Assembly (NCBI GenBank): GCA_030426475.1
Contig: JAUHYR010000009.1
Location: 1 to 52,363 of the forward strand
Reading direction: 5' to 3'
From: Bacteroidia bacterium
Lineage (GTDB): Bacteria > Bacteroidota > Bacteroidia > Flavobacteriales_E > Vicingaceae
DNA: 52,363 nucleotides
The notes below the pieces were generated by a model, which was not told the origin of the DNA, made no database searches, and saw only the letters and a list, made by a program, of their open reading frames with translations. Shown here piece by piece: positions 46,308 to 52,363 of this stretch (position 1 is the stretch's first letter; each line of letters begins with the position of its first letter). The translations under genes and the position numbers were made by a program.

Positions 46308-46353
46308 GTTTATTAAAAAGCCTCAACATTTGTCTATAATTAGGTTGAGGCTT
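46308..46353 (-). terminator. Terminator-like hairpin in the leader of the Spo0M-like gene
   Basis: Perfect 10-bp arms AAGCCTCAAC (46318-46327) and GTTGAGGCTT (46344-46353) enclose 16 nt; on the minus strand the stem is followed by TTTTTAATA. It lies 8-53 bp upstream of the start codon at 46300 and no promoter is visible in between, so it is either an attenuator or a terminator left from a lost upstream gene. Confidence 0.6.
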
Positions 46354-46360
46354 AGATTAA

Positions 46361-46422
46361 GTACCCCAAACCGTTCAAATGTCGAACTTTATTGTTAAAG
46401 ATGTAAATATAGTAATAAAAAC
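46361..46422. repeat. Left copy of 62-bp direct repeat
   Basis: From GTACCCCAAACCGTTCAAAT onward, 62 bases are identical to 51786-51847, in the same orientation. Weaker similarity to the same right-hand unit continues for about 40 bp more. It contains GTTC...GAAC around AAATGTC. Confidence 0.95.
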
Positions 46423-46567
46423 GTCCTCAAAATTAGGTTATTAAAAAAGCTTAAACTCTTTGCATTTTAATATAAAGATAAGTAAGATATACTTATCTCA
46501 GATATTAAATATACACTTACCCGACTTCACAATCCTTTAAGTTCAAAATTCCTTCTAATTTGATACT

Positions 46568-46575
46568 TATATTTG
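46568..46575 (+). promoter_or_regulatory. Candidate -7 element for the island operon
   Basis: TATATTTG matches TAnnTTTG exactly and ends only 5 bp before the ATG at 46581, so the transcript would start at or next to the start codon. No TTTG lies at the normal -33 position. Confidence 0.45.
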
Positions 46576-46580
46576 CGACA

Positions 46581-47255
46581 ATGAAAATCCTGATTATAGA
46601 AGATGAACAAGAACTTGCTGAAGACATGGTAAAATACCTTACCAACGAGCAATACCTATGCGAATATGCTTCAGATTTTCAGACCGCAATGAAAAAGATT
46701 TATGAGCATGATTACGATTGTATTTTATTGGATATAATGCTACCTGGTGGTGATGGGTTAATTATTTTAGAAGAGCTTAAAAGACTAAATAAGCAGGATG
46801 GAGTAATCATTATATCAGCTAAAAACGCCATAGAAGATAAAATAAAAGGACTTAAACTCGGAGCTGATGATTACTTAGCCAAGCCCTTTCATCAGGCTGA
46901 GTTAGCAGCGAGAGTTGAATCATTGATTAGGAGGAAACAATTTGATAGTAATAATCAGATTGTTCAAAATGAAATAATCATTGATATTAATGCTAAAACA
47001 GTAAAAGTTCATAATGTACCGATAAACCTGACCAAAAAAGAATATGATTTACTCCTTTTCTTCATAGGCAATAAAAACAGAGTCCTTTCAAAAGGAGCTT
47101 TAGCCGAACACCTTTCAGGGGACTTTGCTGATATGTTCGATAACCATGATTTTGTATATGCACATGTCAAAAATCTAAAGAGAAAGCTCAAGGAGAAAGA
47201 ATATGGAGACTACATCAAAACCATATACGGGACTGGATATAAATGGGAAAAATGA
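46581..47255 (+). CDS. OmpR-family response regulator of the island
   Basis: This regulator of 224 residues has a receiver domain (acidic pocket IIEDE, D51 in CILLDIMLPGGDG, Ser-Ala in IISAKN, Lys in DDYLAKPF) and a PhoB-type winged helix (VPINLTKKEYDLLLFFIGN, FVYAHVKNLKRKLKEK). The ATG at 46581 gives the canonical MKILIIEDEQE start, while the longer frame from 46560 begins within the promoter. It is the first gene of the four-gene operon, and its stop overlaps the kinase start (ATGA). It likely controls the receptor and lipoprotein genes downstream. Confidence 0.94.
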   Translation: MKILIIEDEQELAEDMVKYLTNEQYLCEYASDFQTAMKKIYEHDYDCILLDIMLPGGDGLIILEELKRLNKQDGVIIISAKNAIEDKIKGLKLGADDYLAKPFHQAELAARVESLIRRKQFDSNNQIVQNEIIIDINAKTVKVHNVPINLTKKEYDLLLFFIGNKNRVLSKGALAEHLSGDFADMFDNHDFVYAHVKNLKRKLKEKEYGDYIKTIYGTGYKWEK

Positions 47256-48541
47256 CTAGACTACTCAACAAACCATTGAAGGCATTTGCTCTTTACGCCA
47301 TGATAATTTTGGTGATTAGCATTCCTGTTTACGTATTAGTTATTGACTATATATGGAAAAGTGAGCTGGATGAGAACAATTGGCTTACCTTACAACATAC
47401 CAAACAAAATCTTCAATCCAAGCAGTTTACACCAGTCGAAATAGAAAACATCAATCAAATTTGGGGAGAACTACAACCTGGTGTTTCGATTGTAAAAGCA
47501 GAGAACACGATTTTTTTTAAAGACAGTATTTATGAAGTCATCAGACCAAACGTATATGATGAAGACGATGGAAAAGATCGATTTCGTAGTTTAAAATCAT
47601 TGGTGCAATTAAATGGAGAACCCTATATTTTAACCATTGAGACCAATGTGGAAGAATCCGATGAAACATTTGCCGCTGTAGCATTAATTACCTTACTCTT
47701 CTTTGTTATTCTGATTTTTGGATTCATTCTTCTGAATAAAAGAATAGCAGCCAAGACATGGTATTCATTTTATCAAACACTAAGCTCTCTTAAATCCTTT
47801 GAACTTTCAAAGGATAGTGCTATCTATCTTCCAGAATCAGATATTCAGGAATTTCAAGAATTGAATCAATCATTACACTACTTGATAGCAAATAATGTGA
47901 ACACCTATCAGCAACAAAAATCATTTATCGAAAATGCTTCACATGAACTTCAAACACCCATTGCCCTGCTCAAATCTAAAATGGATTTATTAATTCAACA
48001 AAAAGACATATCGCCTGAAATCAGAGAACTAGTAAATAGTATTGCAGCACCATTATCCCGTCTCTCCCGCATTAACAAAAACCTACTTCTGTTGGCTAAA
48101 GTAGAAAACCATCAATACAGTAATCAGGAACAATTGGATATTAAGGAGTTTATAGAAACAGGAATAATTCTTTTTGAAGACTATTTGAATGAAAAACAAT
48201 TTGAATTATCAAATCATTTAACCAAATCTCTTGTGGTCAATGCCAACTCATTTTTGTTGGAAACGCTTATTTACAATCTGCTTTCCAACACTATCAGACA
48301 CACTCAAAAAGGTGGAAAAATCAACATTTACAGTAATGAAAACTCAATAGTGATATCAAACAGTGGTAAAGAAAGTTTAGACCATACACAGTTATTTAAA
48401 CGATTCTCGAGTACAACTAAAGACAAAATTAGCAGTGGCTTAGGGCTTGCAATTATCCAAGAAATTGCCAATAAATATGAATGGAAAGTTCACTACAGTT
48501 TTGAGAGCGGTTTTCATATTTTTTCTGTGAGTTTTAATTAA
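47252..48541 (+). CDS. Sensor histidine kinase of the island
   Basis: This 429-residue two-pass kinase has membrane helices at about 10-34 and 142-163 around a periplasmic domain of about 105 residues rich in acidic residues (YDEDDGKDRFR). HisKA has the phospho-acceptor in IENASHELQTPIALL (H231), and HATPase has N box TLIYNLLSNTIRHT and G2 SSGLGLAII. The G1 box reads ISNSGK instead of the usual D-x-G, a variant tolerated in this kinase subgroup. The start ATGA at 47252 overlaps the regulator stop by 4 bp, so translation is coupled. The acidic sensor could bind a cation or cationic peptide, which is a guess. Confidence 0.93.
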   Translation: MTRLLNKPLKAFALYAMIILVISIPVYVLVIDYIWKSELDENNWLTLQHTKQNLQSKQFTPVEIENINQIWGELQPGVSIVKAENTIFFKDSIYEVIRPNVYDEDDGKDRFRSLKSLVQLNGEPYILTIETNVEESDETFAAVALITLLFFVILIFGFILLNKRIAAKTWYSFYQTLSSLKSFELSKDSAIYLPESDIQEFQELNQSLHYLIANNVNTYQQQKSFIENASHELQTPIALLKSKMDLLIQQKDISPEIRELVNSIAAPLSRLSRINKNLLLLAKVENHQYSNQEQLDIKEFIETGIILFEDYLNEKQFELSNHLTKSLVVNANSFLLETLIYNLLSNTIRHTQKGGKINIYSNENSIVISNSGKESLDHTQLFKRFSSTTKDKISSGLGLAIIQEIANKYEWKVHYSFESGFHIFSVSFN

Positions 48542-48650
48542 GAAATTTTCTTCTTTCTCTCAATATGAATTCGGGATTATTCCCAATTCTAAATTTATTC
48601 TAAATCCTCTTTGATATTTGTCCTGTATTAACTTTTTAAATCATTCAAAC

Positions 48651-49121
48651 ATGAAAAATTTAACACTTATCTCAGTACTTTCGGTTACACTATCTCTGCA
48701 GTCATGTGCACAGGAATCAGAAAGCAAAAATGTACCCGAAAAGGTGCTAACAGCATTCAAAACAAAATTTCCGGACGCTAAAAAAGTAAATTGGGAAATG
48801 GAAAACGACTCAGAGTGGGAAGCTGAGTTTAAATTAAATGGTAAAGAATATTCTGCTAATTTCAGTGCTGAAGGGGAATGGCTTGAAACTGAATATGAAA
48901 TAAAAGAGTCCGATATTCCATCGAATATCCTTGCAGTCCTTGACAAAAATTTTTCCGATTATGAAATCGAAGAGCTTGAGATTGCCGAGACGGCTTCAGG
49001 CAATTCCTATGAAATGGAAATTGAAATTGGAGAAGATGGGTTTGAAGTTACCATTGATGCTAAAGGAAATTTAACTAAGAAAAAAGAAAGTAAAGAAAAT
49101 GATGAGGATAACGAAGATTAA
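48651..49121 (+). CDS. PepSY-like lipoprotein of the island
   Basis: This protein of 156 residues has a lipoprotein signal (MKNLTLISVLSVTLSLQSC, Cys19) and two PepSY-like units of about 60 residues: PEKVLTAFKTKFPDAKKVNWEMENDSEWEAEF and PSNILAVLDKNFSDYEIEELEIAE. The family is the Bacteroidota PF11396 (beta-lactamase-inhibitor-like) group. It is extremely acidic, and the tail (KESKENDEDNED) strengthens that. It should lie in the periplasm or on the outer membrane and may bind cations or the neighbouring sensor. The ATG at 48651 starts the signal peptide, so an upstream in-frame start is not used. The receptor gene starts before its stop (23-bp overlap). Confidence 0.87.
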   Translation: MKNLTLISVLSVTLSLQSCAQESESKNVPEKVLTAFKTKFPDAKKVNWEMENDSEWEAEFKLNGKEYSANFSAEGEWLETEYEIKESDIPSNILAVLDKNFSDYEIEELEIAETASGNSYEMEIEIGEDGFEVTIDAKGNLTKKKESKENDEDNED

Positions 49122-51522
49122 TCGACTCATCATTGTTTGCCTGTTATTATGCTCTCGTATTGTATTTGCACAAAAAACAGCCGTTAATGTTTCTGGCATT
49201 CTCAAAGATAAGGTCTCTGATGAGACCTTACCCTTTGTTAATGTAGTTTTGAAAAAATCTACTGATTCATCTTTTGTATCAGGCACTATAACTAATGAAA
49301 ATGGATTGTTCACTCTTTCAGATATCCATTCAGGTAATTTTATAATAGAATGTTCATATATTGGTTATAATACTTATTCCTCTAATATATACATTGGCTC
49401 AAACACAAATTACATTGATTTAGGTATAATATTTCTAATAGAAAATGTGCAAAATCTTAGTGAATTTGTTATTACTGCCAAACAAGATGCTATAACTGGC
49501 ACAATGGACAAAAAGACATACAGCATAGACGATAATGTGAGTCAGAGTGGCGGCAGTGTACTACAAGCCATGAATAATCTACCAGGTATTACCACTCAAG
49601 ATGGACAGGTGGAGCTTAGGGGGAATAATCAGGTGGTAGTTTTAATAGATGGTAAACAAACAGCTATCACAGGTTTTGGCAATCAAAATGGCTTGGACAA
49701 TATCCCTGCTTCAGCTATTGAAAAAATAGAAATCATCAACAATCCTTCAGCAAAATATGATGCCAACGGGAATGCAGGAATCATCAACATTGTCTTGAAA
49801 AAAGAGGAGCAAAAAGGACTCAACGGCAAAATGGGTTTGTCAACGGGTCTTGGTGCTTTATGGGTACGGAAAGAAAACCTACCCGGCATACGTGAACAGT
49901 ATCAGGCAACACCCAAAGTCAGCCCATCTCTTTCTCTGAATTATAGAAAGAAGAAAGTCAATCTCTTTCTTCAAGCTGACAACCTCTATACCGAAACACT
50001 AAACAAAAATGAATTTGTAACCAGAACCTATAGTGATGGTAAGATAATCAACCAACAATTGAAACGAAATAGAAATACAAATTTTTTCACTTCAAAAGCT
50101 GGGTTTGATTGGTTCATTAGTGATAAAAATACACTGACTGTTTCTGGTTTCTTCAGCCAAGAATCTATTAAGGATTATGGGGATCAGCCCTTTTTTAGTG
50201 GTAATGATGGAGAAAACCTTAGACTATGGCAATTTTTGGAAGATGAAATATTGACTGCAGCTATGGCATCTTTAGCCTACGAGCATAAGTTCAAGCAACC
50301 CGGTCATAAATTAAATATAGGCTTCAATTACACCTTCGACAGAGAAGACGAGAAGTATTTCTTTACAAATAAAACTCCATCCTTCACTACAGAAGAATCC
50401 TTTTTTCTTATTGCGGATCAAAAGGTTGCTGATTTTACATTAGATTATACTAGACCTATGAAGCATGGCTTACTGGAAACAGGGATGAAATTCCGAAGAA
50501 GAACTATCCCAACTGATATGCAATTCAATCCTTCGGCTACTAACTCAGTTCTTGATACTGGTGCTGATGGTCTGGCAACTTATAATGAAATTATTCCAGC
50601 TGTGTATGGAAACTATACCTATGAAGTCAAAAAACTAGAAGCAGAAATCGGATTGAGATTAGAATATGTGGATTTGCAATATAATGTTGATCCAAACCAC
50701 AATACCTACCATAGCAATGGCTATAATTACTTGCAACCTTTTCCCAATGCCCGATTGACATATAAAGTAAATGAAAGTAATAAATTATCTGCATTTTACA
50801 ATCGTAGGGTTGACCGACCTGATGAGGTGGACATTCGAATTTTTCCAAAGTATGATGATGCTGAAATTATTAAAGTGGGTAATCCCGCTTTAAAACCTCA
50901 GTTCACAAACAGTTTTGAACTTGGTTATAAGAATGGTTGGGACAAAGGATATTTCTACGAAGCAGCTTATCACCGTATTTCATATGGAGCCATTACCCGA
51001 GTAGCCACAACTGTTGATACTACCAACCTGATCTACAACATTTCTCAAAATGTCGGGAAAAGCTACAACACAGGAATTGAAGTAGTCATCAGTCAGGAAC
51101 TTTCTGATAGGATCAATATGAACCTGAATTTGAATGGTTATTATAATCGGATAGATGCGTTCACAGTTGTCAATCAATATCCCATAGAAAACACTTTTAC
51201 GGCAGATCAACAGGAAATCTATTCCGGAAACATAAAGCTAAATACCAATTTTAAATTTGGTAAAAACACAGAAGCTCAATTGACAGCTATTTATCTTGCT
51301 CCTGATATCATTCCTCAGGGAACTATATACGGTAGGTATTCTATTGATCTAGGTATAAAAAAGATAACTCAAAAAGGGAAAGGTGAAGTTTTTATAAATA
51401 CAACTGATTTGTTCAACACCATGGTTATAAAAAAGAAAACTATAGGGAATAATTTTAATTATGTAAGTGCCGACTATTATGAAACACAAACTATTAGAGC
51501 TGGTTATAATTTTAAGTTTTAA
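49099..51522 (+). CDS. TonB-dependent outer-membrane receptor (OMP_b-brl_3 type) of the island
   Basis: This 807-residue outer-membrane protein has a signal peptide (about 1-24, CSRIVFAQ), a CarboxypepD_reg-like domain (about 27-110), a plug with LQAMNNLPGITTQDGQVELRGN and VVVLIDGKQTAITG, and a barrel of the outer-membrane-beta-barrel type that ends in TIRAGYNFKF. Unlike the receptors at 27572 and 43360 it belongs to the shorter-plug group often paired with two-component systems and PepSY-like lipoproteins. Its substrate is unknown; metal or siderophore uptake is a usual guess. It is the last gene of the operon and is followed by 840 bp of repeats and gene-free sequence. Confidence 0.92.
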   Translation: MMRITKINRLIIVCLLLCSRIVFAQKTAVNVSGILKDKVSDETLPFVNVVLKKSTDSSFVSGTITNENGLFTLSDIHSGNFIIECSYIGYNTYSSNIYIGSNTNYIDLGIIFLIENVQNLSEFVITAKQDAITGTMDKKTYSIDDNVSQSGGSVLQAMNNLPGITTQDGQVELRGNNQVVVLIDGKQTAITGFGNQNGLDNIPASAIEKIEIINNPSAKYDANGNAGIINIVLKKEEQKGLNGKMGLSTGLGALWVRKENLPGIREQYQATPKVSPSLSLNYRKKKVNLFLQADNLYTETLNKNEFVTRTYSDGKIINQQLKRNRNTNFFTSKAGFDWFISDKNTLTVSGFFSQESIKDYGDQPFFSGNDGENLRLWQFLEDEILTAAMASLAYEHKFKQPGHKLNIGFNYTFDREDEKYFFTNKTPSFTTEESFFLIADQKVADFTLDYTRPMKHGLLETGMKFRRRTIPTDMQFNPSATNSVLDTGADGLATYNEIIPAVYGNYTYEVKKLEAEIGLRLEYVDLQYNVDPNHNTYHSNGYNYLQPFPNARLTYKVNESNKLSAFYNRRVDRPDEVDIRIFPKYDDAEIIKVGNPALKPQFTNSFELGYKNGWDKGYFYEAAYHRISYGAITRVATTVDTTNLIYNISQNVGKSYNTGIEVVISQELSDRINMNLNLNGYYNRIDAFTVVNQYPIENTFTADQQEIYSGNIKLNTNFKFGKNTEAQLTAIYLAPDIIPQGTIYGRYSIDLGIKKITQKGKGEVFINTTDLFNTMVIKKKTIGNNFNYVSADYYETQTIRAGYNFKF

Positions 51523-51547
51523 ATGGATTTATATTCTGAAAAAAAAA

Positions 51548-51799
51548 TCAAATGTCGAAGCTAAACAAGAAGTACATATTTTACAACATAAAAACTTCCG
51601 CTAAATTAGGGTACTAAAAAGGCTGAAAACTCTCTTCCCTATTAGAAAAAATTAGAGCTTAGAGAGAAATTAAGATGTTAAAATGGGATGGGAATCAAAC
51701 CAAAATATCCCATTTGAATCAATAAAACAGACATTTTCAAACAAAAAATGCCGTTAAGAAACTCTAAACGACATTTTGCTTCATTGTACCCCAAACCGT
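51548..51799. repeat. Tandem repeat unit A (about 252 bp)
   Basis: The unit runs from the first TCAAATGTCGAA (51548) to just before the next (51800). Unit B repeats it with scattered differences; 60 bp (51724-51783) are identical to 51983-52042. It contains a hairpin with 11-bp arms (51745-51755 and 51767-51777, one C/A mismatch) and another with perfect 9-bp arms (51681-51689 and 51707-51715). No ORF of note. Confidence 0.9.
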
Positions 51800-51847
51800 T
51801 CAAATGTCGAACTTTATTGTTAAAGATGTAAATATAGTAATAAAAAC
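51786..51847. repeat. Right copy of 62-bp direct repeat
   Basis: Identical to 46361-46422 in the same orientation. It spans the junction of tandem units A and B. Confidence 0.95.
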
Positions 51848-52058
51848 TTCCGCTAAATTAGGATGCTAAAAAAGGCTGAAAACTCTCTTCACTATTAGAA
51901 TAAATTAGAGCTTCAAGAGAAATAAAGAAAGTAAACCAAAATGGGAAGGAAATCAAACCAAAATAGCTCATTTGAATCAATGAAAACAGACATTTTCAAA
52001 CAAAAAATGCCGTTAAGAAACTCTAAACGACATTTTGCTTCAGTGTAGCCGAAAAAGT
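51800..52058. repeat. Tandem repeat unit B (about 259 bp)
   Basis: This second copy of unit A starts at TCAAATGTCGAA (51800). The hairpin 52004-52014 with 52026-52036 is conserved exactly; the AAATGGGAT hairpin of unit A is broken here. A third, partial copy begins at 52059 (TCAAATGTCGAA) and similarity fades by about 52075. Confidence 0.9.
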
Positions 52059-52363
52059 TCAAATGTCGAACCAAATTTTAGATGATATTAAAACGATACT
52101 AAATTGTGAATAGTCTTGTTCGTTATTCAAGTAGCTTTAGAAACCCGTCTTTTCTGCAACAATAACTTGTTTATACAAAGATGTTAGAACATAAGATAAG
52201 TCAGGATAGTAATAAGCTAACGAAGAAAAATTGATCACTACTATTTAAAGTAATTTTTTTCGCGACTTTCCCCATTAAATATTGAACTTTGCTAGTGATT
52301 TTTTTTAGAACTCAGACAATAAGGTTCAAGTGTCTGTTCAAGCCCTAGGTCTAAAAAAGTAAA
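52059..52363. other. Gene-free sequence after the tandem repeats
   Basis: After a partial repeat start (52059 to about 52075) I see no open reading frame, terminator or RNA gene. It is A+T-rich. GTTCAAG occurs twice near the end (52324-52348) but does not form a tRNA T-arm. Confidence 0.6.

Follow-up and report, generated by a model that had tools for sequence, protein, structure and literature searches.

A PorY-family sensing operon, probably acquired, lies among low-copy repeats resembling orphan gene tails in a Bacteroidia genome

PorX, the partner of the P. gingivalis sensor kinase PorY, carries a PglZ-type output domain. Kinases of the PorY family (NF052314) also occur, paired with a regulator, in modules on Cytophagales plasmids (Runella rosea CP030855, Emticicia pEMTOL01, Adhaeribacter swui and Hymenobacter). 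The locus described here shares with these modules the regulator–kinase pair, an adjacent OMP_b-brl receptor and/or PepSY-like gene and, in some cases, a similar direct-repeat box. However, gene order varies among them, in several, CusA/CzcA- or HlyD-type efflux genes take the place of the receptor, and they reside on plasmids, whereas the present module sits between tail-like repeats. Two kinds of element invite comparison with those repeats. One is the class of genomic islands that insert at the 3′ terminus of a gene, displacing the tail; the apparent orphan 3′ tails seen here, all cut at one shared point in the full copies, recall them, although neither an intact target gene nor an att pair emerged at this locus. 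Dispersed intergenic repeats, including MITE-like elements, are likewise short, low in copy number, near terminators and unrelated to neighbouring genes; unlike MITE-like elements, the present repeats read as coding tails with a common stop rather than terminal inverted repeats, and no target-site duplication was seen at them.

Within the window—the whole 52,363-nucleotide stretch of DNA that was analysed—the operon comprises the following features, of which the promoter region was read directly from the letters and is a prediction:

46542..46576, plus strand: likely operon promoter region, with a direct repeat TTCAAAATTCC/TTCTAATTT (possible regulator box) and TATATTTGC (-7 type)
46581..47255, plus strand: OmpR-family response regulator, 224 aa (Pfam Response_reg and Trans_reg_C; NCBIfam)
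47243..48541, plus strand: sensor histidine kinase of the PorY family (NF052314, residues 6-431)
48587..48605, plus strand: proposed regulator box ahead of the PepSY-like gene, an 11-bp-spaced direct repeat TTCTAAATTTATTCTAAAT
48651..49121, plus strand: PepSY-like acidic lipoprotein (PF11396)
49099..51522, plus strand: outer-membrane beta-barrel receptor (PF14905, Plug, CarbopepD_reg_2)

Regulator, kinase, PF11396 protein and OMP_b-brl receptor are thus adjacent and read in one direction. The kinase scored 397.8 bits against the PorY-family cut-off of 350, which was exceeded by all seven kinases tested (that of the window and those of six compared modules). Its partner differs from the PorXY pair that regulates type IX secretion: the regulator combines Response_reg with Trans_reg_C instead of a PorX-type PglZ output, and the linked targets are the PepSY-like protein and the receptor. 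The direct-repeat box ahead of the regulator gene is weaker than TTCTAAATTTATTCTAAAT. Boxes similar to the latter precede pepSY or the receptor gene in the family genome G040, Emticicia and Adhaeribacter, making four loci with the window, against an expectation of about one chance match over all nine comparison loci. A palindrome, AGATAAGTA-AGATA-TACTTATCT, lies upstream of the operon promoter at ~46475-46500 and might be an operator for another regulator.

These features suggest a simple circuit. The PorY-family kinase would sense a signal at the envelope, with a metal or stress at the outer membrane as the probable cue; the OmpR-type regulator would bind the spaced direct repeat ahead of pepSY and, once bound, would turn on the genes for the PepSY-like lipoprotein and the receptor. 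Metals are proposed as the signal because of the efflux neighbours on plasmids and the iron-dependent PepSY-like genes reported in Bacteroides and Porphyromonas (PMC10434189); we treat this as a lead rather than a result.

The operon is absent from most relatives. At a threshold of E 1e-40, kinase matches were found in 3 of the 46 family genomes including the window's own, the two others at 30% identity, and no close match was seen in 43 of the 45 other family genomes. One family genome (G021) has a similar regulator–kinase pair with a divergent PepSY-like gene, and another (G040) has regulator, kinase and PepSY-like genes in a row. The receptor's best plasmid match is on the Runella rosea plasmid (CP030855; 60% identity over 98%), where regulator and kinase genes follow directly. 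On the Emticicia (conjugative), Adhaeribacter and Hymenobacter plasmids, this pair or its PepSY-like gene is accompanied by receptors or by efflux genes of the CusA/CzcA and HlyD types. Base composition also sets the operon apart: GC3 is 0.28-0.31 in all four genes and at least 0.28 in only three of the 35 other genes listed for the window. From the patchy kinase distribution, the plasmid relatives and the GC3 shift, we conclude that the operon is probably a horizontally acquired Bacteroidota module; a PorY-family sensing module seems to have moved between orders of this phylum into a chromosome. A direct donor could not be pinned down, because the plasmid relatives share only 28-33% identity with the window kinase and 50-53% with its regulator. 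On the Emticicia conjugative plasmid, the regulator/kinase pair has a CusA/CzcA efflux operon on one side and, on the other, a receptor accompanied by an EamA-type transporter (NC_018742.1 135221-146915; locus L126). Spo0M-like genes of sister genomes, 64-75% identical to the one left of the operon, stand in different, non-syntenic surroundings.

A sequence-only reading of this stretch had noted identical direct repeats on either side of the operon and took them to suggest that the module was gained or lost by recombination, or through a site-specific mechanism dependent on a factor encoded elsewhere. The repeats themselves are beyond dispute: 46361-46422 and 51786-51847 agree at 62/62 bases in the same orientation, far beyond chance, and between them lies exactly one operon of four co-directional genes. 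No recombinase or transposase is encoded between the repeats, the enclosed genes being regulator, kinase, PepSY-like protein and receptor. The repeats nevertheless form part of a larger set in and around the window:

46310..46354, minus strand: hairpin between the Spo0M-like gene and copy A, AAGCCTCAAC...GTTGAGGCTT, with a T-run on the minus strand (read directly)
46361..46444, plus strand: repeat copy A, an apparent orphan C-terminal tail VPQTVQMSNFIVKDVNIVIKTSSKLGY-stop, left edge GTACCCC
51549..51617, plus strand: repeat copy B1 (partial), QMSKLNKKYIFYNIKTSAKLGY-stop; frame and stop unchanged, middle different
51786..51869, plus strand: repeat copy B2, VPQTVQMSNFIVKDVNIVIKTSAKLGC-stop; its first 62 bp are the right-hand repeat
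52045..52113, plus strand: repeat copy B3 (diverged), VAEKVQMSNQILDDIKTILNCE-stop
51567-51812 and 51823-52071, plus strand: two tandem units of ~256 bp, 86.6% identical, containing tail copies and hairpins

Because related pieces lie on either side of it, at 51549-51617 and 52045-52113, the supposed right boundary is the second of three relatives in tandem; about 250 bp separate the last copy from the contig end at 52363. B1 and B2 have identical flanks around a 28-bp middle that is wholly different at equal length (about 8/28 matches by eye). Elsewhere in the genome, on another contig, a third copy identical at 62/62 bases (G000:C15:35397-35458) stands between unrelated genes without the operon. 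One of its neighbours is the 3′ end of a gene for a 509-aa protein, which had no Pfam or PHROGs match; the other is a run of phage-like genes. These are convergent and continue to the contig end (G000:C15:35397-40766; L010 6398-11767), encoding a Sak4-like ATPase, a D12 DNA methyltransferase and an N-acetylmuramoyl amidase.

Aligned side by side, all full copies end abruptly on the left at GTACCCC. To the right, beyond the 62 bp, the copies stay similar for about 57 bases at lower identity: A, B2 and the C15 copy show 0/62 differences, followed by 14-26 across the next 60 alignment columns. This sharp change suggests that the 62-bp stretch underwent recent exchange or selection, so that it could still hold a recombination site; of the arguments left for a part of the stretch in recombination, this is the strongest.

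Full copies read as a 27-codon C-terminal tail, VPQTVQMSNFIVKDVNIVIKTSxKLGx-stop, that has no start codon and ends in KTSSKLGY in A, KTSAKLGC in B2 and KTSCKLGH in the C15 copy. Nearly all copies are open in a single frame from GTA CCC to the stop, the exception being one of two copies in the family genome G019, which has a 2-nt deletion. Differences between close pairs are enriched at third codon positions (18/35, p = 0.02), a modest coding signal. At the DNA level, conservation of the first 27 bases exceeds what a protein-coding role would require by itself.

In six other family genomes (G009, G016, G019, G021, G025 and G030), diverged relatives of the repeat (VPQTGxISN...) have the same starting point and lie beside unrelated genes; a relative was also found in a further Bacteroidia MAG (L021, G426). 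Their tails read VPQTGQISNFLMKDSGIIIQQSKFIGLTI in G009, VPQTSQISNFLMLDSGIIIQQSKFIGQNI in G021 and VPQ(T/S)GHISNPKIHEDLLLIEN... or VPQTGLKSNQQAREFLFEIDK... in others. Patterns built on the shared edge returned relatives in 7 of the 46 family genomes, counting the window's own, and reversed-pattern controls gave zero matches. Exact scanning of GTDB as a whole under a strict pattern returned three loci only, all in Bacteroidota MAGs; across 395 genomes sampled from the class, just one further match lay outside the family, by eye a chance one. The sequence left of the GTACCCC edge is unrelated between copies and often holds a terminator-like hairpin, which precedes most relatives. Given the abrupt shared start and the unrelated neighbours, we regard the 62-bp repeats as a low-copy dispersed family, probably of orphan 3′ gene tails left by recombination, and bring its common cut point to attention here. 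Searches of Pfam, NCBIfam, PHROGs and PDB, of plasmids (two tails searched) and of nearly all of the tail-bearing G009 contig yielded no full-length parent gene. For want of such a parent, that the tails are gene ends is something we infer, as is any part that the repeats play in moving the operon. A literature search on the repeat found nothing.

How, then, do repeats and operon relate? We lean towards two overlapping things, an acquired operon and a dispersed family of orphan 3′ tails, rather than an element with proven ends. Intergenic regions would collect such orphan tails, hence their presence on both sides of the operon; their role would at most be to supply homology for recombination, with the operon as a passenger. 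As to the earlier proposal, the gain of the module finds support in the patchy kinase, the receptor relative on the Runella rosea plasmid, the Cytophagales plasmid modules and the GC3 shift. The part that cast the repeats as its ends found no support, as the search of the same genome and its relatives that had been suggested to verify them returned the third copy without the operon and relatives by unrelated genes in six other genomes, not a unique pair of operon ends. Of two findings that had been named as telling against the proposal, an intergenic repeat dispersed without regard to gene content was observed, though at low copy number, and an operon at the same place in all relatives was not. 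As members of a small, dispersed set of apparent orphan gene tails, the repeats do not by themselves make the operon a mobile element. That an acquired operon has tail copies on either side is suggestive all the same, and it may have been gained or lost through the repeats.

A stronger version of that idea would make the repeats true boundaries: the operon would have arrived on a circle or fragment with one repeat that recombined, RecA-dependently, with a resident repeat, so that a copy ended up on each side, and loss would follow the same route. The exact 62/62 match in one orientation, around a whole operon and nothing else, speaks for this, as do the patchy, probably foreign operon and the resident pool of identical repeat that the C15 copy represents; were the repeats to prove recombination sites, they would offer a simple route for the gain and loss of whole operons. 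We nonetheless consider it unlikely, if a serious contender, for the right side is three related copies and not a single boundary, repeat copies exist without the operon, and the plasmid relatives in Runella and Persicobacter have neither GTACCCC nor the CAAATGTCGAA repeat. More speculatively, the GTACCCC tails could be sites of site-specific recombination or integration that displaces a gene's last codons, the operon being a cassette in a cassette-like array. The same truncation nucleotide at unrelated loci in seven family genomes, the DNA-level conservation of GTACCCCAAACnGGnCAnATATCGAA, the tandem copies right of the operon, the phage-like genes adjoining one copy (C15) and the position of many copies just after terminator-like hairpins would all fit. 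However, an intact target gene and a second end were not identified, viral collections gave no match and copy number is very low. Both the cassette scenario and the wider idea that the tails are crossover points of an undescribed site-specific system in this Flavobacteriales family, cutting at GTACCCC near gene 3′ ends, therefore strike us as improbable. Least credible, and very improbable, is an assembly artefact: short-read assembly of a metagenome bin would have connected flanks that do not belong together, misled by three exact occurrences of a 62-bp repeat. The fragmentation into 139 contigs would fit, as would the facts that the window spans an entire contig whose end lies close to the tandem copies and that small assembly k-mers are shorter than 62 bp; yet the bases that follow the 62 bp vary from copy to copy while remaining homologous and in frame, as expected of real copies.

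Several other identities of the repeat were considered and set aside. TGTACCCC resembles the ends of IS3-family elements, and one locus has a candidate transposase-like ORF, which had no significant Pfam hit. No rve-type transposase was found in the window's own genome, neither GTACCCC nor GGGGTAC lay near rve genes in relatives, and the rve-type search did not yield the transposase plus inverted second end that would mark an IS element. The motif recalls tRNA-Leu(GAG), the one resembling tRNA compared, but that tRNA ends differently in the same genome and the motif spacing is 5 nt longer. A phage attachment site found no match among viral contigs, and no integron attC core (RYYYAAC ... GTTRRRY) was apparent by eye at the repeat boundaries. 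For a minus-strand small RNA with a terminator, no Rfam family reached its gathering threshold and folding was not clearly better than that of shuffles; it was dropped also because the in-frame tail fits the pattern better. Relaxing the Rfam threshold gave weak hits only, far below gathering scores, and a hit to mir-96 (E 0.008, 23.9 bits versus a gathering score of 65) was treated as chance. Finally, a second dispersed intergenic repeat, reading FVAKRCMKASTSYS / LYEGFHLIQHNLS, adjoins one tail copy in another family genome (L092 3988-4335 and 7495-7722; G019:C215).
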